A stretch of 64,000 bases of DNA from the NCBI RefSeq assembly GCF_002806995.1, contig NZ_NIHE01000004.1, positions 186,001-250,000 on the forward strand, read 5' to 3'. Position 1 is the stretch's first letter. Each line of letters starts with the position of its first letter. Position numbers and translations under genes: made by a program. Of this stretch, positions 3,410 to 14,035 are shown piece after piece. This DNA comes from Confluentibacter lentus (GTDB lineage: Bacteria > Bacteroidota > Bacteroidia > Flavobacteriales > Flavobacteriaceae). The notes below the pieces were generated by a model, which was not told the origin of the DNA, ran no database searches, and worked only from the letters and a program-made list of their open reading frames with translations.

Positions 3410-3434
3410 AATTTCCGCATTCACGGAATCTTTT
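3407..3434. terminator. Weak bidirectional hairpin between convergent genes
   Basis: AAAATTTCCG and CGGAATCTTTT form an imperfect hairpin with A/T flanks on both sides, between the ends of ftsY (+) and the serine hydrolase (-). The stem core is only about 5 bp. Confidence 0.35.
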
Positions 3435-4506
3435 AATTTATCAACAAATTAATCTTTTCCCAAAGATCATTATCGAAATTGGTTGGACCTAATTCATCTT
3501 CATTGCCACTATCTCCCATGCGCACTATTACCATATTTTTGCTTGGGATGATGTACAATTTTTGGTCGAAAGCACCCAATCCCGCAATCAAGTCATCCGG
3601 TGCATTGGGAATTAATTTACCTGTAAACAAGGTTTCAGAACCCGGAATTTTATAATTGCTTTTTCCATTCAACCAATATAAATAGCCATATGATTTATTC
3701 AAATCTTGTGATGTGGTTGTCATCTCCATGAAATAATTTTTATCTGCCAATATGGTTGTACCGTTCCAAACACCTTCGTTTAAATTCAATAATCCGAAAC
3801 GCGCCATACTTCTCGCATTGCTAAAATACAGGTTTAAATAACTACCCGTTTTAACCCAACCTCCAGACATGCCTATCTTGTTACGTATTTTAGCATTAAA
3901 ATAATCCTTGAAATCCTGTCCCACAGCACCAGTAACAATATTATCCAAGATTGTATACGCACCTTGATGGTAATACCAAAACGTATCCGGTTCATTTTTA
4001 TACAGAAAACATTCGGGGTCGGTGCAAAAATTTTGGGGAACGGTATAATCGAGTCCAGTAGTCATTGTTAAATGGTTGCGTACCGTAATTTGTGATTCTT
4101 GTTCCGAAGTTAAAGACGACCAACCAGTGCCCATATAATTGGAGGACGGATTGTCAATCGATAAAAAGCCTTCTTCCTGTGCAATCCCAACGGTAAAAGC
4201 GGTTAAAGTTTTTGCGGCTGAGTTCCAAGAATGAATACTCGATTGTTGAAAAGTCCCAAAATACTTCTCAACAACAATTTTTCCATCCTTTAAAATAATA
4301 AAAGCATCAGTAGCACTGGCTTCCAGAAAATCATACAACGGTTGTTCTGCACTGGCATTCCAGCCCACCTCGGCAATGGAAAGCGTTGCCCAAGTATTGG
4401 AATTAACAGGTGGAAAATAAAGAGTGTCCGGTTCAACGGGTTCGTCTTTAGAGCAGTTAAAAAACGACAATAAAGCAATAAACAAGAATACGTTTATACG
4501 TTTCAT
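3433..4506 (-). CDS. Serine hydrolase lipoprotein, beta-lactamase/PBP-like fold
   Basis: The ATG at 4506 gives 357 residues; it places the lipoprotein signal MKRINVFLFIALLSFFNC first, with the lipobox cysteine at 18. An upstream in-frame start at 4536 would bury the signal. SAAK, in the context HSWNSAAKTLTAF, supplies the SxxK nucleophile of the beta-lactamase family. The order of later motifs resembles class C esterase/6-aminohexanoate-dimer-hydrolase-like proteins (WYYHQGAYTIL region, GLGAFDQKLYIIP near the C terminus). It is probably an envelope-anchored peptidase or esterase of unknown substrate. It interrupts the usual ftsY-rimO adjacency and is transcribed against both. Confidence 0.8.
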   Translation of the reverse strand: MKRINVFLFIALLSFFNCSKDEPVEPDTLYFPPVNSNTWATLSIAEVGWNASAEQPLYDFLEASATDAFIILKDGKIVVEKYFGTFQQSSIHSWNSAAKTLTAFTVGIAQEEGFLSIDNPSSNYMGTGWSSLTSEQESQITVRNHLTMTTGLDYTVPQNFCTDPECFLYKNEPDTFWYYHQGAYTILDNIVTGAVGQDFKDYFNAKIRNKIGMSGGWVKTGSYLNLYFSNARSMARFGLLNLNEGVWNGTTILADKNYFMEMTTTSQDLNKSYGYLYWLNGKSNYKIPGSETLFTGKLIPNAPDDLIAGLGAFDQKLYIIPSKNMVIVRMGDSGNEDELGPTNFDNDLWEKINLLIN

Positions 4507-4650
4507 AATAGTAGGTTTTAATAACGGGACATACAAATATAATAAAATAGTGATTAGTTAATAGTGAAAAGTGAATAGTTACTTCAGCTAAACACCAAAC
4601 AACTAAACAACTAGCAACCCAACACCAAAGACCTAAGACCCGATACCCAA

Positions 4651-4693
4651 AATTCGTAAATCATAAATCGTATATCGTAATTCGTAAATCATT
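4651..4693. repeat. Imperfect TTCGTAAATCAT tandem repeat upstream of rimO
   Basis: ATTCGTAAATCAT occurs twice, separated by related AAATCGTATATCGTA units, immediately upstream of the rimO -7 box. A similar TCGTAATTC stretch lies upstream of lysS (53098-53128) at a comparable distance from its promoter. The rest of 4507-4650 is A-rich filler with no gene seen. Confidence 0.5.
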
Positions 4694-4696
4694 CCC

Positions 4697-4704
4697 TATC
4701 TTTG
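4697..4704 (+). promoter_or_regulatory. -7 promoter element of rimO
   Basis: TATCTTTG matches TAnnTTTG, 19 bp before the ATG of rimO. No good TTG is seen at the -33 spacing, so the upstream repeat may take part in recognition. Confidence 0.6.
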
Positions 4705-4723
4705 CACACTTATTAAAAAAGGC

Positions 4724-6034
4724 ATGCGTACAAAATCACTAAAGAAAAACCGAATTAATGTAGTCACCCTGGGCTGTAGTAAAAATGTTTACGATAGCGA
4801 GGTGTTGATGGGGCAATTAAAAGCCAGTGGAAAAGATGTGGTTCATGAAGAAGAAGGGAATATCGTGGTGATTAATACCTGCGGATTTATCAATAATGCC
4901 AAGGAAGAAAGCATCAACACGATTTTGGAATACGTGCAAAAAAAGGAAGATGGCGAAGTCGATAAAGTGTTTGTTACGGGGTGTTTGAGTGAACGTTACA
5001 AACCGGATTTGTTAAAGGAAATCCCGAATGTGGATGAGTATTTTGGAACCACTGAGCTTCCCGGATTACTGAAAGCCTTGGGTGCCGATTATAAACACGA
5101 ACTCATTGGTGAGCGTTTAACCACCACGCCAAAAAATTATGCCTATTTAAAAATTGCCGAAGGATGCGATCGCCCCTGTAGTTTTTGTGCCATTCCGTTA
5201 ATGCGTGGTAAACATAAAAGTACGCCGATTGAAGATTTAGTGACCGAAGCTGAAAAACTAGCCGCCAAAGGGGTCAAGGAACTTATTTTAATTGCGCAGG
5301 ATTTAACCTATTACGGGTTGGATTTATATAAAAAACGCAACCTGGCCGAACTTTTGGAGGCCTTGGTAAAAGTAGATGGTATTGAATGGATTCGTTTGCA
5401 TTATGCCTTTCCAACGGGGTTCCCAATGGATGTGTTGGAGGTTATGAAGCGTGAACCGAAAATATGCCATTATTTGGATATTCCGTTGCAACATATTTCT
5501 GATAGCGTTTTAAAAAGCATGCGTCGTGGTACCACCAAAGAAAAGACCACGCAATTGATTAAGGATTTTAGAGCCGCTGTGCCTAATATGACCATTAGAA
5601 CGACCTTGATTGTGGGCTACCCCGGTGAAACTGAAGCTGATTATCAAACCCTAAAACAATGGGTGAAGGAGATGCGTTTTGAGCGTTTGGGCTGTTTCAC
5701 CTACAGTCATGAAGAAAACACCCATGCCTATAATTTGGAAGATGATGTCCCAGAAGCCGTGAAGCAACAACGTGCCAACGAGATTATGGAACTGCAATCG
5801 CAGATTTCTTGGGAGTTGAACCAAGAGAAAATAGGCAATACCTTTAAAGTGGTTATTGACAGAAAAGAAGGCGGTTATTTTGTGGGAAGAACAGAATTTG
5901 ATTCACCCGATGTTGATAACGAAGTGCTTATTGATGCCAGCAACATCTATTTAAAAACAGGGGAATTTACCACCGTTAAAATCACGGATGCTGCTGATTT
6001 TGACCTTTATGGCGAAGTAGTTATGTCACCTTGA
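4724..6034 (+). CDS. rimO: Ribosomal protein S12 methylthiotransferase RimO
   Basis: A 436-residue radical-SAM methylthiotransferase that modifies an aspartate of ribosomal protein S12. The N-terminal UPF0004 domain has cluster cysteines in TLGCSKN (C18), NTCGF and VTGCLSERY. The radical SAM motif CDRPCSFC lies near 148-155 and a TRAM domain near 370-430. The final codons (VVMSP then TGA) are unusual: they coincide with a dispersed repeat at 6024-6040. Two decayed copies of this 3' end nearby instead end in VVANK or VVIK, which look more like the ancestral terminus. The enzyme is otherwise intact. Confidence 0.96.
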   Translation: MRTKSLKKNRINVVTLGCSKNVYDSEVLMGQLKASGKDVVHEEEGNIVVINTCGFINNAKEESINTILEYVQKKEDGEVDKVFVTGCLSERYKPDLLKEIPNVDEYFGTTELPGLLKALGADYKHELIGERLTTTPKNYAYLKIAEGCDRPCSFCAIPLMRGKHKSTPIEDLVTEAEKLAAKGVKELILIAQDLTYYGLDLYKKRNLAELLEALVKVDGIEWIRLHYAFPTGFPMDVLEVMKREPKICHYLDIPLQHISDSVLKSMRRGTTKEKTTQLIKDFRAAVPNMTIRTTLIVGYPGETEADYQTLKQWVKEMRFERLGCFTYSHEENTHAYNLEDDVPEAVKQQRANEIMELQSQISWELNQEKIGNTFKVVIDRKEGGYFVGRTEFDSPDVDNEVLIDASNIYLKTGEFTTVKITDAADFDLYGEVVMSP

Positions 6035-6040
6035 GCGCAG
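6024..6040. repeat. Half-copy of a dispersed inverted repeat overlapping the rimO stop
   Basis: TGTCACCTTGAGCGCAG differs at one base from TGTCACCTTGAGCGTAG at 14036-14052, the left arm of a full inverted repeat. The rimO stop TGA (6032-6034) lies inside it, so the repeat encodes the last two residues and the stop. Confidence 0.65.
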
Positions 6041-6086
6041 GCCAGGTGTTAATTTGTATGGGGAGGCACTTTTCATGTTGATATTA

Positions 6087-7448
6087 TTATTTCTCTCTTT
6101 TTGCCTTTATTTCACTATCATAATTTTTAATAATTAGGAAATCTACTTGACCTTTTTCATTTTTTGAAAGGATTTGAGTATTAGGAAAAACTTCATAGCA
6201 AATAAATTCATTTTCTTTAATAAAGTGCATTTTCCAAGCAGTGTGAGAGTTACTGTCTTTTAAATAAAGGTCGCCATTTTCTTTGTAAATTTTTATAGTT
6301 GAGGGATCATTTGGTGAAAATCTATACGTTCCAACATAATCATCCATTGCAGATGAGGAAATCTTTATTTCTTTTAATGGTGCTTTTTCAGCGACTATGG
6401 CTGCAACTTGGTCATTAATGATATCGGTGTTTATAAAACTACCATTACTAAAAGTAACAACTAAAATATCTTCTTGTGGTAAATAGGTTGCTTTACAATT
6501 AAAACCATTGATATGTCCACCGTGTTCAATTTTTTTACTTCCAAAAATATCCCCCAAAGCCCAACCATATCCATATGGTGTAAAAGTTTTATTATTTAAT
6601 TGAAATGGCATCCATGCTTTTTGTAATGTTTCTTTTTTAACTAATTTGTTTGTTATTAATCCTTCGTGCCATTTAAAATAATCTTGGACAGACATGATAA
6701 GTCCACCAGCAGCATATGGGAATGTGGTATTTAAGTAGCCTGAATTTACTAGTTTGTAATCAGCATCCAAATCGTAGCCCTTTGCTCTGTTTTGTATGAT
6801 AGTTGTGGAACTGTCGTAATAAGAGTCCGTCATTCCTAGCGTATCAAAAATATTTGATTGGATATAATCGGCATACGCTTTACCTGTTATTTTTTCGATG
6901 ATGTATCCCAATAATATGTATCCCGAATTTGAGTAGCTGTATTTTTCACCCGGCTGAAAATCAAGTGGCATATTTTTAAATAAATCAATTAATTCTTCTG
7001 TGCTATAAGGCGTTTGTTTTATTTCCAAATCCTCTATTTCAGTAAGGTTTTTAATGCCAGAAGTATGCGTTAATAAATTTTTAATTGTAATTTTTTTAGA
7101 ATGCACTGGAAAATCTGGAACATGTGTTTGAATGGCATCGTTCAAATCTAACTTACCTTGTTCGTATAATTGTAAAATGGTAATAGCAGTAAATTGTTTT
7201 GTGATACTACCAATTCTAAATATATTACTTGGGTTGGTTGCCACATTTAATTCTATATCCGCTTTACCAAAACCTTTTTCATAAATGATGTGGCCGTTTT
7301 TTGAAATAAGGGTAGCACATCCAACACCATCCTCTGTAAAAAAAGTATTGAAAAAGTCATCTAATTTGTTTTCAAGTTTTGTTTGGCCAAAGCTGTAGCT
7401 GGTAATTATAAAAATAAAGGCAGTAAGAAATTTAATTTGCTTGTACAT
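6087..7448 (-). CDS. Secreted serine hydrolase, class C beta-lactamase/PBP-like
   Basis: A 453-residue protein with a signal peptide (about residues 1-21, cut after SYSFG). All three catalytic motifs of the family are present: SITK in FRIGSITKQFTA (SxxK), YSNSGY (YxN) and HGGHING (HxG). A C-terminal extension of about 100 residues resembles the DUF3471/lipocalin-like tails of such enzymes. It is probably periplasmic or exported; the substrate could be a peptide or an ester. It is divergent from a membrane-anchored winged-helix regulator. A 16-base A tract lies just upstream of its start. It is the first cargo of the rimO-oxidoreductase hotspot. Confidence 0.85.
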   Translation of the reverse strand: MYKQIKFLTAFIFIITSYSFGQTKLENKLDDFFNTFFTEDGVGCATLISKNGHIIYEKGFGKADIELNVATNPSNIFRIGSITKQFTAITILQLYEQGKLDLNDAIQTHVPDFPVHSKKITIKNLLTHTSGIKNLTEIEDLEIKQTPYSTEELIDLFKNMPLDFQPGEKYSYSNSGYILLGYIIEKITGKAYADYIQSNIFDTLGMTDSYYDSSTTIIQNRAKGYDLDADYKLVNSGYLNTTFPYAAGGLIMSVQDYFKWHEGLITNKLVKKETLQKAWMPFQLNNKTFTPYGYGWALGDIFGSKKIEHGGHINGFNCKATYLPQEDILVVTFSNGSFINTDIINDQVAAIVAEKAPLKEIKISSSAMDDYVGTYRFSPNDPSTIKIYKENGDLYLKDSNSHTAWKMHFIKENEFICYEVFPNTQILSKNEKGQVDFLIIKNYDSEIKAKREK

Positions 7449-7454
7449 GATTAA

Positions 7455-7470
7455 TTTTTTTTTTTTTTTT
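7455..7470. repeat. 16-bp T/A homopolymer in the 5' region of the serine hydrolase gene
   Basis: Sixteen consecutive T on the + strand (A on the coding strand), 6 bp upstream of the ATG at 7448. A promoter-like ACAATTTTG lies immediately upstream on the minus strand. Tracts of this length are prone to slippage and would change initiation spacing or 5' UTR length. Confidence 0.75.
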
Positions 7471-7564
7471 GCAAAATTGTTTTATACTGAACACATTCTG
7501 TCTTTAGAAAAACTTTAGATTTTCTATTTTTATGGATAAACAAAATATATAAACCACAGAAATG

Positions 7565-7572
7565 TAATTTTG
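7565..7572 (+). promoter_or_regulatory. -7 promoter element of the winged-helix regulator gene
   Basis: TAATTTTG matches TAnnTTTG, 26 bp upstream of the regulator's ATG. Confidence 0.55.
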
Positions 7573-7597
7573 TATTCATTTATAAAAGAGCACAGCA

Positions 7598-8326
7598 ATG
7601 AAAAATACAGAAGAAATGATTACTGAAAGATTTGTTTTTAATCCAAATCGTAGCCTTTTGATTGATACAACCACAACAAATGAAATTAAACTTGAACCAA
7701 GGCTAGGAAATTTATTGAGCTTACTTTGTGATAACAGAGGGAAATTAGTGACTAGAGAAGATATTATTGATAAAATCTGGAACAATTACGGTGGTGCTGA
7801 AGACGGTTTAAATCAAGCGATTTCTTATTTGCGTAAAGTACTTTTAGACAAAGACAAAAAAATAATTGAGACCATTCCAAAGAAAGGCTATGTTTTAAAT
7901 ATGCTGGTTTTAAAAGACCAAGAAACTAGACATAAACAACATCAGTCTATTTTTAAAAAGCTTGGAATTAAGGGTTATGCTGCCATTTTTGTATCTATCA
8001 TCTTGGCAGGAGTTATCTTTTTAAAAAAGGATAAATCATCTTCAGTAACTACAAAAAACAGTCCAGTTGAATTTTCAACGGATGTTAATTACAATGAATT
8101 GAACAAGCCTGAAGCCGAAACATTTTTGAATACCATCACGACAGTTTCCCCCGATAACACAACATATAAAGTCATTGCTATTGGTGATAAAAGACCAACT
8201 TTTTATATCAACAATAAACTCGTTAAAAATCAAGAAGACTATACTGTTTTGATAGATAATATGCTGAAACAATTATGGGAAAGGCAAAAAAAGTACTATG
8301 ATTCCATTGGAGGTATCAATAAATAA
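7598..8326 (+). CDS. Membrane-anchored winged-helix transcriptional regulator, CadC/ToxR type
   Basis: A 242-residue protein. An OmpR/PhoB-type winged helix covers about 15-105 (LVTREDIIDKIW, LNQAISYLRKVLLD and the wing ending in ETIPKKGYVL). One transmembrane segment follows near 128-146 (GYAAIFVSIILAGVIFL), then an extracytoplasmic domain of about 95 residues. This one-component layout resembles ToxR/CadC regulators, which sense envelope signals. It is divergent from the serine hydrolase at 6087-7448, its obvious candidate target, by analogy with envelope-sensing control of hydrolases. It forms cargo 1 of the hotspot with that gene. Confidence 0.8.
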   Translation: MKNTEEMITERFVFNPNRSLLIDTTTTNEIKLEPRLGNLLSLLCDNRGKLVTREDIIDKIWNNYGGAEDGLNQAISYLRKVLLDKDKKIIETIPKKGYVLNMLVLKDQETRHKQHQSIFKKLGIKGYAAIFVSIILAGVIFLKKDKSSSVTTKNSPVEFSTDVNYNELNKPEAETFLNTITTVSPDNTTYKVIAIGDKRPTFYINNKLVKNQEDYTVLIDNMLKQLWERQKKYYDSIGGINK

Positions 8327-8345
8327 TTAAATGTACCCTATCCAT

Positions 8346-8372
8346 ACATTCATTGCCCACCAAACACAAAAT
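8346..8372 (-). pseudogene. Remnant of the 3' end of the FAD/Fe-S oxidoreductase (copy a)
   Basis: ACATTCATTGCCCACCAAA followed by CACAAAAT aligns with 11152-11175 around the stop codon of the oxidoreductase (ACATTCATCCGCCAAA, then TACAAAAT), with a 3-bp insertion. It is joined directly to a rimO remnant. On its own 27 bp would be weak; the identical arrangement at 9951-10241 makes it credible. Confidence 0.6.
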
Positions 8373-8519
8373 TGGGAGTTAAACCAAGAAAATAAGTAAC
8401 ACCATTAAAGTGCTTATTGATGCCAGCAAAATCTATTTAAAAACGGGTGAATTTACGACGGTTAAATTACGGATGCTGCGGATTTTGATTTATATGGTGA
8501 GGTTGTTGCCAATAAATAA
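8372..8519 (+). pseudogene. Decayed 3' end of rimO (copy a)
   Basis: The stretch aligns with rimO 5809-6023. It reads WELNQEN, then VLIDASKIYLKTGEFTTVK, then after a one-base loss ITDAADFDLYGEVVANK and a stop. A 75-bp segment corresponding to rimO 5847-5921 is missing, between two AAGTG(G/C)TTATTGA repeats. It has an early stop and no start. It separates cargo 1 from cargo 2. Confidence 0.85.
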
Positions 8520-8697
8520 ATTGGTTTAATCGTATTGGTTCTCTTAACTTCCCGGGACTTTATGCAGGTGGGGACTTTTATTACCGATGTTTACAAATAT
8601 ACCGAAAAGATTAAAAGAAAAACTTTCACTTAGGATAAGAAAATGCAAACACCGACCTTTGTCGGTAAATCTTAAAACACCAGTTGCATAAAACCTT

Positions 8698-8712
8698 GTT
8701 AGCGGTAGTACT
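8698..8712. repeat. Left inverted repeat of cargo 2
   Basis: GTTAGCGGTAGTACT, matched at 9933-9947 by AGTATTACCGCTAAC in inverted orientation with one mismatch. The pair tightly brackets the two ORFs of cargo 2; this arm lies 7 bp beyond the stop at 8720. The gap 8520-8697 also holds a small hairpin, ACCGAC-CTTT-GTCGGT, near 8650, and no gene. Confidence 0.6.
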
Positions 8713-8719
8713 ATTTTTC

Positions 8720-9412
8720 TTAGTAAGTTATAGTAGAAGGTTGTATAGAAACTCTTCTAAGTTTTTTCATATAGGTTTGTTCGCTTCCTCTGTTATCCCA
8801 AGCAGCTTTAAAATGTTCTATTAATGATGGAATGTCTGATTCAATAGTCGATTTCCATAGATTTTGATTATATTCATAAACCCTCAGCATATTGTCAACA
8901 TCAAAAATTTTACCTGTATCTTTTGTCTTAATTAGTGCAACTGGTAAATCATTTGCCATTCTCATTCCTAATTCAAAAAGAACATTCGGATTATGGTCAG
9001 TTAAATCTGCAATCACTAAATCTGCTTCTAGTAAATCATTTATGATTGTAGATTGTATAACATCAGAGCCTTGTTTGTTGGCGGTTTCTACATTAAAACC
9101 AGCTTCGATTCCTGCGGGAATAATTAAACTGTCTAGTACTTCTTTAAAAAAACCTTGAGCGCGAATGTCATTCCTTTCAACAAATGGCATGATTACAAAT
9201 GCCTTTAATTTTAATTTTCCTTTTGTATTTTTTCTAGTTTCTCCTATAACAATTGTTGAATGGGATATTGGACTTGACTCAGAGTCAGATAATGGATTCC
9301 CATTAGTTATATTTAACTCTTTGCAATTTTCACTAAAAACTTTAGAAAATTCCTCATGAAAATCAGGATGTAATTTGAACTTATCTTCCAGAGTGTTACT
9401 TAAATACTTCAT
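8720..9412 (-). CDS. Nucleoside 2-deoxyribosyltransferase/TIR-like domain protein, C-terminal half of a frameshifted gene
   Basis: The 230 residues contain FVIMPF near 73, GSDVIQSTIINDLLEADLVI and IADLT..NPNVLFELGMRMA, the pattern of nucleoside-2-deoxyribosyltransferase-like and TIR-like nucleotide-processing domains, with the glutamate of FELG in the catalytic position. The N-terminal part (KYLSNTLEDKFKLHPDFHEEF) is helical and continues directly from the upstream ORF in another frame: the sequence before this ATG reads IEAFLKIEIFRNVLDYYKG then SKLPE without stops. The natural protein is therefore probably about 385 residues long. Related domains act as NAD- or nucleotide-degrading effectors in antiphage systems, which is a possible but untested role. 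Flanked by inverted repeats as a cassette. Confidence 0.75.
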   Translation of the reverse strand: MKYLSNTLEDKFKLHPDFHEEFSKVFSENCKELNITNGNPLSDSESSPISHSTIVIGETRKNTKGKLKLKAFVIMPFVERNDIRAQGFFKEVLDSLIIPAGIEAGFNVETANKQGSDVIQSTIINDLLEADLVIADLTDHNPNVLFELGMRMANDLPVALIKTKDTGKIFDVDNMLRVYEYNQNLWKSTIESDIPSLIEHFKAAWDNRGSEQTYMKKLRRVSIQPSTITY

Positions 9413-9452
9413 TTCAGGAAGTTTACTTCCTTTATAGTAATCTAATACATTT

Positions 9453-9878
9453 CTAAAAATCTCTATTTTTAAAAATGCTTCTATTTTTTTTTCTCTTTTC
9501 AGTTTGCACGTCAGGAGTATAAACAGTAGATCTGCCGAAATCGGTCAACGCTATTTCTTTTGCATCTCTTGTACCTATTGTAAATCCAAAATCTCTTGAA
9601 GCTTGAGAACAATAAAAGAATTTGTTATTATCAGTTAAGTTAATTGCAACTTTTACATCTTTAGGAGTCCACGGATTTCCACCGTTCATTTCTTTTAATT
9701 TTTGAGCAATTATAAGACTTTTTTCAACTGTTACAATTTGGTAGTTTCGTGTTGGCTTTGGAGACTTTTTAACAGTTTTTGCATTTGTAGGTTTGGCTTT
9801 AGTAGCTTTTTTGGGGCTAACTTTTTTTGCTATACCATTCAATGCTTTTGACTCTGTAATTTTTGTATCCTCTCCCAT
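9453..9878 (-). CDS. N-terminal half of the frameshifted deoxyribosyltransferase/TIR-like gene
   Basis: The 141 residues begin with a lysine-, alanine- and proline-rich tail (about 1-45), followed by a compact region with NGGNPWTPKDVKVAINL, CSQASRDFGF and IALTDFGR, which resembles a winged-helix domain. The last residues after EKRKK are out of frame. Removing one base from a run of nine A (coding strand, 9484-9492) restores a continuous frame into the next ORF. The start at 9878 is chosen for the MGEDTK N terminus. The DNA-binding-like domain plus enzymatic domain suggests a sensor-effector protein; I do not know a named family. Confidence 0.65.
   Translation of the reverse strand: MGEDTKITESKALNGIAKKVSPKKATKAKPTNAKTVKKSPKPTRNYQIVTVEKSLIIAQKLKEMNGGNPWTPKDVKVAINLTDNNKFFYCSQASRDFGFTIGTRDAKEIALTDFGRSTVYTPDVQTEKRKKNRSIFKNRDF
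9484..9492 (-). other. A9 homopolymer at a frameshift joining two ORFs
   Basis: Nine A on the coding strand. With eight A the frame runs EKRKKIEAFLKIEIFR and links 9453-9878 to 8720-9412 as one gene. It may be a null mutation, a phase-variable switch, programmed slippage or a sequencing error. Confidence 0.7.
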
Positions 9879-9932
9879 GATATATTTTTTTAAATTATTA
9901 TGTTAAAATCAAATATAATGATATACTCTAAA

Positions 9933-9947
9933 AGTATTACCGCTAAC
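9933..9947. repeat. Right inverted repeat of cargo 2
   Basis: AGTATTACCGCTAAC, the inverted partner of 8698-8712 (14 of 15 positions). It lies 55 bp upstream of the cassette's first start codon and directly abuts the oxidoreductase-end remnant. Confidence 0.6.
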
Positions 9948-9950
9948 TTT

Positions 9951-10118
9951 AATGATATGAAATCGTTTTAATGTTTTATATCAGACGTTAAACGAAGATA
10001 GCTGAAAAATTTTACAAACAAAAACCAAGTTATAAACAATTATCCACCAAAATATAAAATAGATTCGTAATTGATGTTTATCGCTTGGCTCATCTCCATT
10101 TAGTGAGTTTTGGTGTAG
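9951..10118 (-). pseudogene. Decayed 3' end and downstream flank of the FAD/Fe-S oxidoreductase (copy b)
   Basis: This aligns with 11051-11230 along its length, including about 95 bp of noncoding flank (AATGATATGAAATC, ATATCAGA and GTTAAA are shared). Translated in the gene's frame it reads TKTH-stop-MEMSQAININ, then YESILYFGG and a stop, against TKTCEMAMSQAINTN then YESILYLADECL in the intact gene. It cannot be functional. It is directly fused to a rimO remnant at 10119. Confidence 0.88.
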
Positions 10119-10241
10119 CTGAACCAAGAAAGAAATACTTTAAAGTGCTTATTTATGCCTGCAAAAATCCATTTAAAAACGGCTATAAATATTACGGATG
10201 TTGCGCATTTTGACTTGTGTGAGGAGGTTGTGATTAAGTAA
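10119..10241 (+). pseudogene. Decayed 3' end of rimO (copy b)
   Basis: It begins CTGAACCAAGAAAG (rimO LNQEK) and ends in frame as AINITDVAHFDLCEEVVIK plus stop, matching rimO KITDAADFDLYGEVV. It carries the same 75-bp deletion as copy a and a further loss after KIHLKT. It separates cargo 2 from cargo 3. Confidence 0.87.
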
Positions 10242-10340
10242 ATTACGTTGATTTTTGATTGGTTCGTTTAATGTTTTGGCTATGGTTTCGTTACGTAAAA
10301 ATACATGAATATTTTCTGGGGTAAGCCGAATATAACAAAT

Positions 10341-10376
10341 TTACTTCTGACTTTCCTATTGGAAAGTCAGAAGTAA
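10341..10376. repeat. Perfect 16-bp-stem palindrome beyond the toxin gene
   Basis: TTACTTCTGACTTTCC, loop TATT, then GGAAAGTCAGAAGTAA. It lies 30 bp past the yoeB stop. It could be a transcription barrier or terminator, though it lacks a clean U tract in either direction, or a mobile-element end. The rest of 10242-10406 has no gene. Confidence 0.7.
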
Positions 10377-10406
10377 TTAATTATGGACGTTGTTGTTAAT
10401 AGGCTG

Positions 10407-10685
10407 TTATTTATCATCATAATGAAATCTGCATTGAATTATTGTGCATTTTTGGTCAACACCTTTTTTTCCAGATACACTATAAACTAATCTGTGTTCA
10501 CCTGTAATTCTTCTTGACCAAAAGCCTTTAAGTCCGTGTTTTAGAGGTTCAGGTTTTCCTGTTCCTTTAAATGGGTTTACTTTAATTTCTTTTAACAAGT
10601 CTTTTATTTTGATTGCTGTATCAGGGTCATTTTCTAGCCAATAGGTGAAATCTTCCCATCCGTGTGCAGTAAAATCAATGTTCAT
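10407..10685 (-). CDS. yoeB: Txe/YoeB family toxin, ribosome-dependent endoribonuclease
   Basis: Ninety-two residues of the RelE superfamily, YoeB branch. HGWEDFTYWLEND at the N terminus, PFKGTGKPEPLKHGLKGFWS in the middle and RRITGEHRLVYSV then HYDDK at the C terminus give the expected catalytic set of Glu, Arg, His and terminal Tyr. Family members cleave mRNA in the ribosomal A site. Its ATG directly follows the antitoxin's TAA with no gap, as usual for coupled toxin-antitoxin pairs. It is the distal gene of cargo 3. Confidence 0.92.
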   Translation of the reverse strand: MNIDFTAHGWEDFTYWLENDPDTAIKIKDLLKEIKVNPFKGTGKPEPLKHGLKGFWSRRITGEHRLVYSVSGKKGVDQKCTIIQCRFHYDDK

Positions 10686-10955
10686 TTAATGAGCTAATTC
10701 TATTTCATCTTCATTGTATTCAACTAATTCTCCCTTTTCGATTTGTTCGATGGATTCCATTAGTCTGTTTCTATTAGCTTTGGTAGATAATAAGTGTTCT
10801 GTTTCTTTTAATGAATTATACTCATTAATAGACATTATGACAACAGCGCCATCACCTTTACTTCTTGGTACAACTATCACTTCCATTGACTTTGAAACAT
10901 AGTCGAAGTGTTTCTTTATACTCTTGCGTAGAGTGGAAATTGTTATTGCTCTCAT
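10686..10955 (-). CDS. yefM: Phd/YefM family antitoxin
   Basis: With the ATG at 10955 the protein is 89 residues and starts [20 protein letters not shown], the usual YefM N terminus; a longer in-frame start at 10994 would lie inside the operator repeats. The DNA-binding N-terminal half includes [20 protein letters not shown], and the acidic C-terminal tail ([12 protein letters not shown]) is the likely toxin-binding region. YefM neutralises YoeB and represses its own operon. Upstream are three TGTACA boxes at an exact 12-bp period, which fit the known YefM operator core. Confidence 0.92.
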
Positions 10956-10971
10956 AACTATTGGTTTTTTA

Positions 10972-11001
10972 TGTACATTATATTGTACAAACAAATGTAC
11001 A
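10972..11001. promoter_or_regulatory. Triple TGTACA operator of yefM-yoeB
   Basis: TGTACA occurs at 10972-10977, 10984-10989 and 10996-11001, each 12 bp apart, 17-46 bp upstream of the antitoxin start. TGTACA hexamers are the core recognised by YefM in Escherichia coli, where they are likewise arranged in repeats. Three self-complementary boxes in phase suggest cooperative binding. Confidence 0.7.
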
Positions 11002-11145
11002 ATATTTATGCCGAATTTCCAAATGAGAAGATTTGTCGGCTTGTTATCAGCTATGATGATATGAAATCTTTTTAATGTTTCATATCAGAAGTTAAATAAA
11101 ATCTGTTAATTTTTATTGAAAATTAAGTTAAGTGATTTTTACAAC

Positions 11146-13965
11146 TTACAAACATTCATCCGCCAAATACAAAATAGATTCGTAATTGGTATTTATGGCT
11201 TGGCTCATGGCCATTTCGCAGGTTTTGGTAGAGGCGTAATAGCCATCGCAAACCACGTTTTTTAGTTCTTGCGCCTCTTGGTTGGTGGAAGAGGTGGTGA
11301 GTTCTGGAAATAAAAACCCTCTATCGCCCGCCATACCACAACAACCATTGTTTTTTGGTACAATAACCTCTTTGGCAAAATGCTTGGCAAGGCTTGTAAA
11401 TGCATCTTCAATCTTTAACTTTTCCAAAGTGCACACCGAATGCAACACAATGCTATTTTTATTACGTTTCACCTGACTTTTAGGTAGTACCATATCGTGT
11501 AAAAAGGCGACCGTATCTAAAATTCGTAGTTTTTTTAATTTGTCTTTGTTTTCAGCAGTGAGGGTAGAACCCATTTGCTTTAAGCTATACGCACACGAAC
11601 TCACATCAATCACCACAGGAATTTTTCCTGAATCTGTGGCATCCCAAAGCCTTTCAAAAATGGTATTGGCTGTAAAACCATACGCCTCTTGATGCCCTTT
11701 TGATGAAAAGGGTTGGCCGCAACAACTGCTATTCACATCCTTTAAAATGGAAACGGCGATGTTTGTTTTTTTACAGACACTTAAAAAGGCTTCCATACTA
11801 TTTTTTTCCTTGCCTTCATACGTGCCCAAAACCCTAGAAATACACGACGGAAAGTAGATAATGTCTGGCTTGGGTTTTGACTGTGATTCTAAAACCGATA
11901 AACTAGGGGGCGATGCAATTTGTGGTGTCCATAATGGCGCATTGGGAATGACTTTTCTAAGGAGCTTGGTGAGGTTGCCCATAGTTTGTTTCCCAAAAAA
12001 ACTATTGATGAGTGTTCCTGCCTTGATGGCGGTTCTTAGTGTCCATTGCATTGTGCCAAAGTGTTTAGCAACCGTTAATGCCACGGCGTTTGCAAATTTG
12101 GAATGGTTTTCACTGCGTAGTCGTTTTACCAAATCACCTGTATTGATATCTACTGGGCAGGCGGTAGCGCACAAACCATCCACGGCGCAGGTGTCTAAAC
12201 CATCATACTGGTATTGGTCTTTTAGCAAGTTGTAATTGGCGGTATCGCCTTGATGTTCTAACGTTTTTAAGGCGCGACGAACCACAATACGTCGTCTTGG
12301 TGTGGTGGTGAGATCTTTACTTGGGCATTTATGCTCGCAATACCCACATTCTATGCAGGTGTCCACTTCAGGCTCCACCGTGGGCAGGGCCTTTAAATTT
12401 TTTAAATGGGTATTTTTATCATCATTAATAATCACGCCCGGATTTAAAAGCAAATGTGGGTCCACCGACAATTTTAAGGTTTTCATAATCTCATACCCCA
12501 AACCACCCCATTCGGTTTCCACAAAAGGTGCCATGTTTCTACCCGTACCGTGTTCCGCTTTGAGAGTGCCATCATACTTTGTCAACACCAATTCCACAAC
12601 CTCTTTAATGAAGGTGTCGTACCGATTGATTTCATAATCCGTATTAAAGGATTGTGTGACCACAAAGTGAATATTCCCATCTTTGGCATGCCCGAAAATA
12701 ATCGCGTTATTGTAGTGGTACTTTTTAAAAAGGACATGTAAATCAACAATGGCAGCGCCTAATGTTTCCACAGGGAACGCGATATCTTCTAAAATAACGG
12801 TCGTACCAGAAGCGCGCACGGCACCTACGGCGGGAAATAAGCCTTTACGGACTTTCCATAACGCAGCCATTTCAGAAGGCACACTGGTGAAAACAGGCGT
12901 TTGAATGAGATTCCAATGCTTCATAAGGCTTAAAAAATCAGTCACTTTTTTATCCAGTGCTTCCGAATCATTCTCCTGATATTCGATAAGCAAAGCAGCG
13001 GCAGATTCTGGTAATGTTTTTACGAAATCGGGGATGGATTCCATATTTTCAACAGCTCTTAGCGACGCTCTGTCCATGAGTTCCACCATCATTGCACCAG
13101 AATTTTTAAGAGGCACAATGGCTTGGCACGCATCAAAAATGGACTGGAAATAGAGTAGGGCAGTCGATTTAAATTTATAATCGGGAACTGTATTTAAAAC
13201 CACTTCAGAAATAAAAGCCAAAGTCCCTTCGGCACCAATAAGCAAATGCGCTAAGATATCCAACGGATGTTCAAAATCGATAAAGGCGTTTAACGAATAA
13301 CCGACCGTATTTTTGGTCAAGTATTTTTTACGGATTTTATCATGCAATTTTTGATTTGATAAGATGTTGTTTTGAAGCGTTGATAAGTTGTCGAACAAGT
13401 CTTTTTCAACCGTTTCAAATCTGGAATAATCATCGTTATTTTCTGTGGAATAGGTGTTTCCATTAGGTAAAATAAACCGTAAATATTTAACCGTATGATA
13501 GGAGTTTAAAGCCACGCCACAGCACATGCCACTGGAGTTGTTGGATACGATGCCACCCATCATGGCGGCATTGATACTCGCTGGATCAGGACCTATTTTT
13601 TTACTATACTTTTTTAAATGGGCGTTCACCATAGCCCCTGTCAATCCTGGTTGTACTCGAACAGTATCGCCATTATTTTCCACGGAAATTTGTTTCCAAG
13701 AATGACTTAAATCCACTAAAATACCATCGGTAATGGATTGCCCCGATAAACTCGTGCCACCCGTGCGAAATACCAAAGGCATGTTGTAGGTTTGCGAAAA
13801 TTGAAATAATGAAATAACTTCTCCCTCGCTAATGGGTTGCACCACCGCTTTGGGAACTAAATGATAAAAACCAGCATCGGAGGCGTAAGATACCAAATCT
13901 ATATAACGGGTTTTGATCCTGCTGGCAGGTAGTATGTTTTCAAGCTCTAAGGCAATATTCTTCAT
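11146..13965 (-). CDS. FAD-binding and (4Fe-4S)-binding oxidoreductase, D-lactate/2-hydroxyacid dehydrogenase-like
   Basis: A 939-residue fusion of a GlcD/Dld-type flavoprotein with a GlpC/GlcF-type iron-sulfur subunit. The PCMH-type FAD domain spans about 30-230 (RTGGTSLSGQS, MGGIVSNNSSG), and the FAD-oxidase C-terminal domain runs to about 500 (GHAKDGNIHF, AEHGTGRN). Two ferredoxin-like clusters follow (CIECGYCEHKCP near 536, CAVDGLCATACP near 590), then two CCG domains (SSCCGQPFSS near 744, NNGCCGMAGD near 871). Such proteins oxidise D-lactate, D-2-hydroxyglutarate or glycolate and pass electrons to the quinone pool. It lies downstream of glpD, with a repeat hairpin between them. Copies of its 3' end occur in the hotspot. 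Confidence 0.88.
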   Translation of the reverse strand: MKNIALELENILPASRIKTRYIDLVSYASDAGFYHLVPKAVVQPISEGEVISLFQFSQTYNMPLVFRTGGTSLSGQSITDGILVDLSHSWKQISVENNGDTVRVQPGLTGAMVNAHLKKYSKKIGPDPASINAAMMGGIVSNNSSGMCCGVALNSYHTVKYLRFILPNGNTYSTENNDDYSRFETVEKDLFDNLSTLQNNILSNQKLHDKIRKKYLTKNTVGYSLNAFIDFEHPLDILAHLLIGAEGTLAFISEVVLNTVPDYKFKSTALLYFQSIFDACQAIVPLKNSGAMMVELMDRASLRAVENMESIPDFVKTLPESAAALLIEYQENDSEALDKKVTDFLSLMKHWNLIQTPVFTSVPSEMAALWKVRKGLFPAVGAVRASGTTVILEDIAFPVETLGAAIVDLHVLFKKYHYNNAIIFGHAKDGNIHFVVTQSFNTDYEINRYDTFIKEVVELVLTKYDGTLKAEHGTGRNMAPFVETEWGGLGYEIMKTLKLSVDPHLLLNPGVIINDDKNTHLKNLKALPTVEPEVDTCIECGYCEHKCPSKDLTTTPRRRIVVRRALKTLEHQGDTANYNLLKDQYQYDGLDTCAVDGLCATACPVDINTGDLVKRLRSENHSKFANAVALTVAKHFGTMQWTLRTAIKAGTLINSFFGKQTMGNLTKLLRKVIPNAPLWTPQIASPPSLSVLESQSKPKPDIIYFPSCISRVLGTYEGKEKNSMEAFLSVCKKTNIAVSILKDVNSSCCGQPFSSKGHQEAYGFTANTIFERLWDATDSGKIPVVIDVSSCAYSLKQMGSTLTAENKDKLKKLRILDTVAFLHDMVLPKSQVKRNKNSIVLHSVCTLEKLKIEDAFTSLAKHFAKEVIVPKNNGCCGMAGDRGFLFPELTTSSTNQEAQELKNVVCDGYYASTKTCEMAMSQAINTNYESILYLADECL

Positions 13966-14035
13966 ATCTATATTAACGTGAGTTCAATTTAAAAGCAAAC
14001 CTAATCTAAGTATAAATTCCAATATTAGTATTTAT

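Follow-up and report, generated by a model that had tools for sequence, protein, structure and literature searches.

The interval between rimO and a convergent gene for a flavin adenine dinucleotide/iron-sulfur (FAD/Fe-S) oxidase was analysed in Confluentibacter lentus. The analysed window was a 64 kb stretch (G000:C27:186001-250000) of a 32-contig draft genome of 3.35 Mb (G000). Both core genes are intact, rimO on the forward and the oxidase gene on the reverse strand, and three unrelated cargoes lie between them. Successive cargoes are separated by decayed 3' ends of the oxidase gene and of rimO, here called junctions 1 and 2. We consider, with moderate confidence, that the hotspot is best explained by filling along two routes, the rimO-anchored addition of locus versions and the docking of cassettes at a hairpin. 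On the best reading, cassettes filled a docking hairpin between the core genes, and other versions of the locus were added over it from the rimO side, at least once and probably twice. The evidence base consisted of five genomes of the genus (G000 and its relatives G001-G004), two remnants and short alignments, all evaluated by sequence analysis. The features of the locus, in window coordinates, are as follows.

4724..6034, + strand: rimO, intact, 436 amino acids (aa); last codons and 3' untranslated region (3'UTR) unlike those of all four relatives
6035..8342, no strand: cargo 1, with a serine hydrolase gene at 6087-7448 (-) and a winged-helix membrane regulator gene at 7598-8326 (+); no cassette border found
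8343..8372, no strand: junction 1, oxidase part, ~27 bp from the 3' end of the oxidase gene
8372..8545, + strand: junction 1, rimO part, 3' end and G002-type 3'UTR, with a 75-bp internal deletion
8546..8700, - strand: E1, imperfect palindrome AAC...GTT bordering cargo 2 at its 3' end; placed as an attC site would be, ends set by eye
8698..9947, - strand: cargo 2, read as a cassette with the borders GTT-AGCGGT-AGT and ATT-ACCGCT-AAC, and with genes at 8720-9412 (TIR/deoxyribosyltransferase-like) and 9453-9878
9945..9989, + strand: E2, hairpin AAC...GTT adjoining the oxidase 3'UTR, then AAACGAAG; member of a genus repeat family, probable docking site, ends set by eye
9947..10114, no strand: junction 2, oxidase 3' end and 3'UTR
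10117..10271, + strand: junction 2, rimO 3' end and 3'UTR, with the same 75-bp deletion, further decayed
10262..10398, - strand: array-type palindromic element on the 3' side of cargo 3; 78% identical to G000:C30:5789-5926, which lies within a cassette array
10407..10994, - strand: cargo 3, YoeB toxin (10407-10685) and YefM antitoxin (10686-10994)
11146..13965, - strand: FAD/Fe-S oxidase, intact, 939 aa

The remnants were detected by self-BLAST of window positions 4000-14000 against the whole 64 kb. In junction 1, positions 8408-8507 matched rimO 5922-6022 (86%, E 3e-23) and 8372-8420 matched rimO 5809-5859 (84%, E 7e-7). In junction 2, 9947-10114 matched the oxidase end at 11051-11229 (73%, E 6e-25) and 10143-10234 matched rimO 5922-6024 (68%, E 2e-6). 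The two rimO remnants also matched each other (8377-8547 vs 10117-10271, 70%, E 9e-17). A first-pass annotation, made from the sequence alone, had placed an oxidase end followed by a rimO end at each junction, and the coordinates, order and orientation it gave were borne out. Alignment to the flanking gene ends, which it had proposed as a check, was significant for three of the four remnant parts (E 6e-25, 3e-23 and 2e-6) and weak for the oxidase part of junction 1. This piece is short, but it lies at the expected place, and its alignment score of 17 was reached by 5 of 5000 shuffles. The E-values ruled out chance similarity or a different gene family as the source of the remnants. Identity to rimO fell with distance from rimO, from 86% to 68%; the direction is that of one-sided growth, with two points only.

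Local copies of the present rimO end should share its private bases. The last ~96 coding nucleotides (nt) of this gene hold four such bases, of which remnant 1 shared none of the three testable and remnant 2 none of the four. A local tandem copy of today's rimO end was thereby disfavoured. Remnant 1 was identical to the G002 gene at 87 of 93 positions, compared with 79 of 93 for its own rimO. In the 60 nt past the stop codon, the pairs remnant 1-G002, remnant 2-G002 and remnant 2-G004 each had scores reached by 0 of 1000 shuffles, and the present rimO 3'UTR gave no pair within the reporting limit of 20 of 1000. This type of 3'UTR was not clearly seen in G001 and G003. Scores across the rimO end and 3'UTR together were higher with G002 than with the own gene, both for remnant 1 (115 vs 72) and for remnant 2 (68 vs 36). 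Remnant 1 was closest to G002, and remnant 2 equally close to G002 and G004. Over its last full 100 nt, the present rimO had the lowest similarity to G001, G002 and G004 (88, 84 and 85%) and the second lowest to G003 (86%). The 3'UTR of the oxidase remnant also scored higher with G002 (76) than with its own oxidase gene (41). Because no private bases are shared and the relatives' type of 3'UTR is kept, the sequence comparison indicates that the rimO remnants are displaced ends of older or other versions and that the present rimO end is the newcomer.

In three of the four relatives, the interval held a single alternative cargo between intact rimO and oxidase genes, different in each; the first-pass annotation had named such strains as support for its reading. 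In G002, the cargo gene encoded a 1074-aa protein of no clear family, in G003 a serine hydrolase of 414 aa, and in G004 a protein of 323 aa bearing a secretion-sorting tail. In G001, a 211-aa gene follows rimO, and then the contig ends. When the six cargo proteins of the window and the four of the relatives were compared, the sole similar pair was formed by the hydrolases of G003 and cargo 1 (26%, E 1e-18). Outside the genus, no oxidase gene (at least 45% identity) was found near rimO among the best 80 of 573 loci, some of which had short downstream flanks. The nearest named rimO among these 80 was that of Marixanthotalea marina (93%). Since the relatives hold single, differing cargoes and the oxidase gene is not beside rimO in the best 80 loci from outside the genus, the interval is a young hotspot of the genus.

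The borders of cargoes 2 and 3 led to repeat families of the genome, and contig C30 of G000 proved to hold an array of small genes between 125-nt palindromic elements. Seven array loci were collected: L196 (G000:C30:1-7837) and L213 in G000; L210, L212 and L192 in G002; and L211 and L197 in G004. A 20-base core pattern of the element (at most 2 mismatches) occurred 58 times in G002, 21 times in G004, nine times in G000, once in G003 and not at all in G001; it was present in 9 of the 60 genomes searched, the own genome included. Cassettes between neighbouring elements of these seven loci carried a six-base code. The six bases after GTT were complementary to the six before AAC at five or more positions in 38 of 43 cassettes, compared with 7.3% of 1806 mispairings.

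Cargo 2 has the same type of borders. Its GTT-AGCGGT-AGT and ATT-ACCGCT-AAC ends are complementary at all six code positions, with the AGT and ATT trimers found in the arrays. It was the only 6/6 pair with array-type trimers at a spacing of 250-3000 bp in the 64 kb, and 20 Markov controls gave none; the trimer rule of this search was fixed after the arrays had been inspected. The pattern GTTAGYGGYAG showed no genome-wide excess over its reversed control. The right border of cargo 2 is the E2 hairpin, which adjoins the oxidase remnant. We examined 18 E2-type sites: 12 had the AAC, and two of these had a matching cassette alongside (cargo 2 counted; 0.09 expected), within a search span of ~1-3.5 kb that was only 1-1.5 kb at several sites. 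The second lone cassette, with one 181-aa gene, lies at an E2-type hairpin with a matching six-base code in L145 (G000:C23:433000-440000, at ~3.0-3.8 kb, near 436.6 kb). Because of the integron-like border code at its ends, cargo 2 was probably docked site-specifically and not acquired by gene-end capture.

Copies of the E2 hairpin family were present in all five genomes. They lay between open reading frames (ORFs) in five of seven loci inspected and overlapped an ORF start in the other two. E2 hairpins may double as transcription terminators. By eye, a further E2-type site (L127, G001:C207), whose flanks are symmetrical, appeared empty, and another (L135) almost empty.

A chain search blind to the element sequence, in which Markov controls gave chains of 2-3, recovered 18 cassettes on G002:C2, a contig with no known recombinase, 11 in G018, six in G028 and four in G029. 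The chains of six and four are modest evidence. The window itself gave a chain of two, no more than the controls. The chain start lay ~0.1 kb or less from a recombinase gene in G018 and G028, and ~3.4 kb from one in G029. At one contig end in G002, a gene for a tyrosine recombinase of 394 aa has three element copies 0.8-2.1 kb downstream. Arrays adjoining the recombinase were thus found in G002 and in other genera; none was seen in G000, whose contig stops past the recombinase gene. Matches to the G002 recombinase (E 1e-40 or better) occurred in 38 of 60 genomes, the own included, some of them without the N-terminal part; the G000 recombinase, encoded at G000:C31:137-1258, was only 40% identical to that of G002. 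Further recombinase loci were found in other genera (L220-L222), and L223 (G009) and L224 (G012) end too soon after the recombinase for an array search. By eye, the genes next to the recombinase genes resemble those of a sigma factor and its partner. In G000, G002 and G004 the recombinase genes lie near a contig end.

Integron cassettes have GTT...AAC borders with complementary flanks, and the present cassettes resemble them in this respect. The recombinases (L192:6880-8064, L191:137-1258 and L193:7251-8435, and those of L220-L222 in other genera) are of the tyrosine type, with 373-394 aa. Unlike integron integrases, they have ~100 extra N-terminal residues, and the three that were scored on the integron integrase model TIGR02249 reached 178-201 bits, below its cut-off of 265. 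No IntI-type integrase exceeded the curated cut-off in any of the five genus genomes; the model also gives sub-cut-off matches in 14 of 14 control genomes. In the G002 recombinase, 22 residues take the place of 65 (182-246) in 2A3V, the structure of a Vibrio integrase, a stretch that we take to be the IntI-specific region. The six-base cassette code and the apparent docking at intergenic hairpins also differ from integrons. A recombinase of this kind presumably moved cargo 2. More generally, an integron-like system may be widespread in Flavobacteriaceae, with tyrosine recombinases that form a branch of their own and 125-nt sites flanked by six-base, cassette-specific codes. It would form arrays of dozens of cassettes and also dock cassettes singly at hairpins that lie between convergent core genes. 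At the rimO/oxidase locus, such a docking site would have been multiplied in tandem, with scars of core-gene ends serving as portable homology handles. We propose this wider picture tentatively, at somewhat less than even odds. We find the integron-like system more surprising than the layered hotspot.

The history of the locus could then have run as follows. The ancestral gap between the convergent genes was probably a short spacer with hairpin E2. Along the first route, DNA with another version of the locus would recombine within rimO, and the far end of the donor, inside the donor's oxidase 3' end, would join at a point slightly inside the 3' end of the resident rimO. This would place the new cargo beside rimO and displace the resident rimO end and the older cargo toward the oxidase gene, leaving an oxidase-end + rimO-end scar. 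Such stepwise addition from the rimO side is favoured because the rimO remnants are displaced older ends. It would have occurred twice, or once with reuse of the scar. In the latter case, a scar-bearing donor could have entered by two ordinary homologous crossovers, the first within rimO, the second between the donor's junction and the end of the resident rimO; this route would fit both the features shared by the junctions and their unequal decay. Along the second route, the integron-like recombinase system of the genus would dock single cassettes at the hairpin, as proposed for cargo 2 and perhaps cargo 3. We infer the order of events, the one-sided recombination and the role of E2 as an old docking site from the present arrangement.

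Several observations weigh against this history. The start points of the two rimO remnants are no more than ~10 bp apart. The remnants also share the 75-bp deletion, flanked by imperfect direct repeats of 13 bp at 5846 and 5921, and one derived base that is found in no intact rimO (0.15 expected). Such sharing of start region, deletion and base is not expected of two separate joinings, and one junction may have been copied from the other. No one-junction intermediate was found among the four relatives. The coding part of the oxidase remnant matched its own oxidase gene at 64 of 78 positions and those of the relatives at 62-64 of 78 (G002, 63). It shares one of two private bases of the own oxidase gene, and local ancestry is therefore possible on the oxidase side. 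A whole E2 hairpin stands next to the oxidase gene only in the window and in G002, with about half of it in G003 and hardly any in G004, and E2 as the ancestral state of the spacer is only probable. The E1 sequence was unique in the five genomes (best other match 24 bp, E 0.016). Compared with shuffled sequences, the folding of E1 (z -1.6, 13 of 200 as stable) and E2 (z -0.55, 58 of 200) was not exceptional; three array-type elements, that of cargo 3 included, had z values of -5.0 to -5.35. No matching code was found at cargo 1, at the right border of cargo 3 or at the cargo of G002; the only array-type element at cargo 3 is the one to its left.

The shared junction features would also fit a single tandem repetition that left one oxidase-end + rimO-end scar, later duplicated by unequal crossing-over, with the hairpin sites filled afterwards and independently by cassettes or other cargo. 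The hairpin and element borders on both sides of junction 2 have complementary outer flanks, which agrees with this course of events, as does the resemblance of cargo 2 to a docked cassette. Sister copies should decay alike, yet in 86 comparable columns remnant 1 has three and remnant 2 has 13 states that occur in no intact rimO. This great difference is not predicted by one copied junction alone and speaks against plain sister copies. The oxidase parts are likewise unequal (~27 bp in junction 1 vs 168 bp in junction 2), the two remnants differ in their closest relatives, and the 13-bp repeats could have let the 75-bp deletion recur independently. We regard a duplicated single scar as unlikely, at roughly one chance in four. 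The first-pass annotation had read the locus as a tandem accretion by single-crossover captures of circular or transforming DNA. It was right about the form, a hotspot with alternative cargoes and with rimO remnants of non-local origin, and its mechanism was only partly supported. Three independent captures, each with its own cargo, would account for the repeated versions of both gene ends, the single alternative cargoes of the relatives and the remoteness of the rimO remnants from the present rimO end. However, the junctions share their start, deletion and derived base, cargo 2 has cassette borders of its own, and no sign of a circular donor was found. The cassette borders speak against the claim that each capture brought its own cargo, and we consider this scenario improbable.

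Gene 3' ends commonly serve as attachment sites, and an ordinary integrative element could have used that of rimO or the oxidase gene. Against it, each junction contains the ends of both genes, and the duplicated stretches are long and decayed, unlike short identical att cores. Integrase families were absent from the matches of the six cargo ORFs, of which five hit other families (one only weakly) and one had no hit. We regard such an element as very improbable. An assembly artefact, in which locus alleles of a mixed sample were joined, might be suspected in a 32-contig draft. We give it hardly any credence, as the assembly is 99.97% complete with 0.6% contamination and the remnants are decayed, not intact alleles.

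On the two-route explanation, the growth of a core-gene hotspot that has no integrase of its own can be read from this locus, with each addition scarring both neighbours. The locus further suggests that such hotspots can be fed by a cassette system. The closest published parallel that we found is the type VI orphan-immunity arrays of Vibrio cholerae (Kirchberger 2017, PMC5361080). According to the parts of that report considered here, one-sided additions at a conserved anchor displace older cargo and can leave the 3' end of the displaced gene. The proposed mechanism is akin to homology-facilitated illegitimate recombination, and the same idea is cited there for Rhs loci with orphaned 3' regions. 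One-sided growth and 3'-end leftovers are common to both cases. The Vibrio anchor, however, is part of a weapon system, whereas here the flanks are housekeeping genes and each scar contains both ends. Illegitimate recombination assisted by homology, as outlined in sections of PMC2884548, similarly combines one homologous anchor with one illegitimate joining and yields alternative segments at one site. There, replacement produces dimorphic loci, in contrast to the addition with scars seen here.

Integrons, clusters of attC sites lacking integron integrases (CALINs) and attG insertions, as treated in portions of PMC12444791, PMC9024848 and PMC8618304, share with the present system the arrays beside a tyrosine recombinase and the cassettes found elsewhere in chromosomes. 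In the part of the IntegronFinder 2.0 report considered (PMC9024848), one complete integron is named in Bacteroidetes proper, in Salinibacter ruber, and review passages count Bacteroidota among the integron-bearing phyla. PMC8352920 contains no word starting with bacteroid, flavobacter or chlorobi, and no description of integron-like arrays in Flavobacteriaceae was found by our searches of open-licence PMC papers. Such arrays would extend integron biology within this family, and cassette movement can be traced directly by the six-base codes.

The cargo genes were assigned to families by profile search. Cargo 1 comprises a serine hydrolase (PF00144) and a winged-helix regulator (PF00486), and cargo 3 comprises YoeB (PF06769) and YefM (PF02604), in agreement with the first-pass annotation. 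Its deoxyribosyltransferase/TIR-like assignment for cargo 2 found only weak matches, since the ORF at 8720-9412 scored 21.1 bits on PF05014, under the cut-off of 28.8, and matched a TIR effector with E 6e-7. The second protein of cargo 2 (141 aa) had no match in Pfam, NCBIfam or PADLOC. Another serine hydrolase with a beta-lactamase fold is encoded at 3433-4536, just 5' of rimO, so that serine hydrolases occur on both sides of this gene. A general tendency of rimO to leave remnants of its end was looked for within up to 10 kb downstream of the gene in 80 loci of other species, and the scan gave two short and weak resemblances to the 3' end of rimO, one in L064 (~8.3 kb downstream; 48 bp, 75%, E 2e-4) and one in L107 (~3.5 kb downstream; 35 bp, 80%, E 5e-4).

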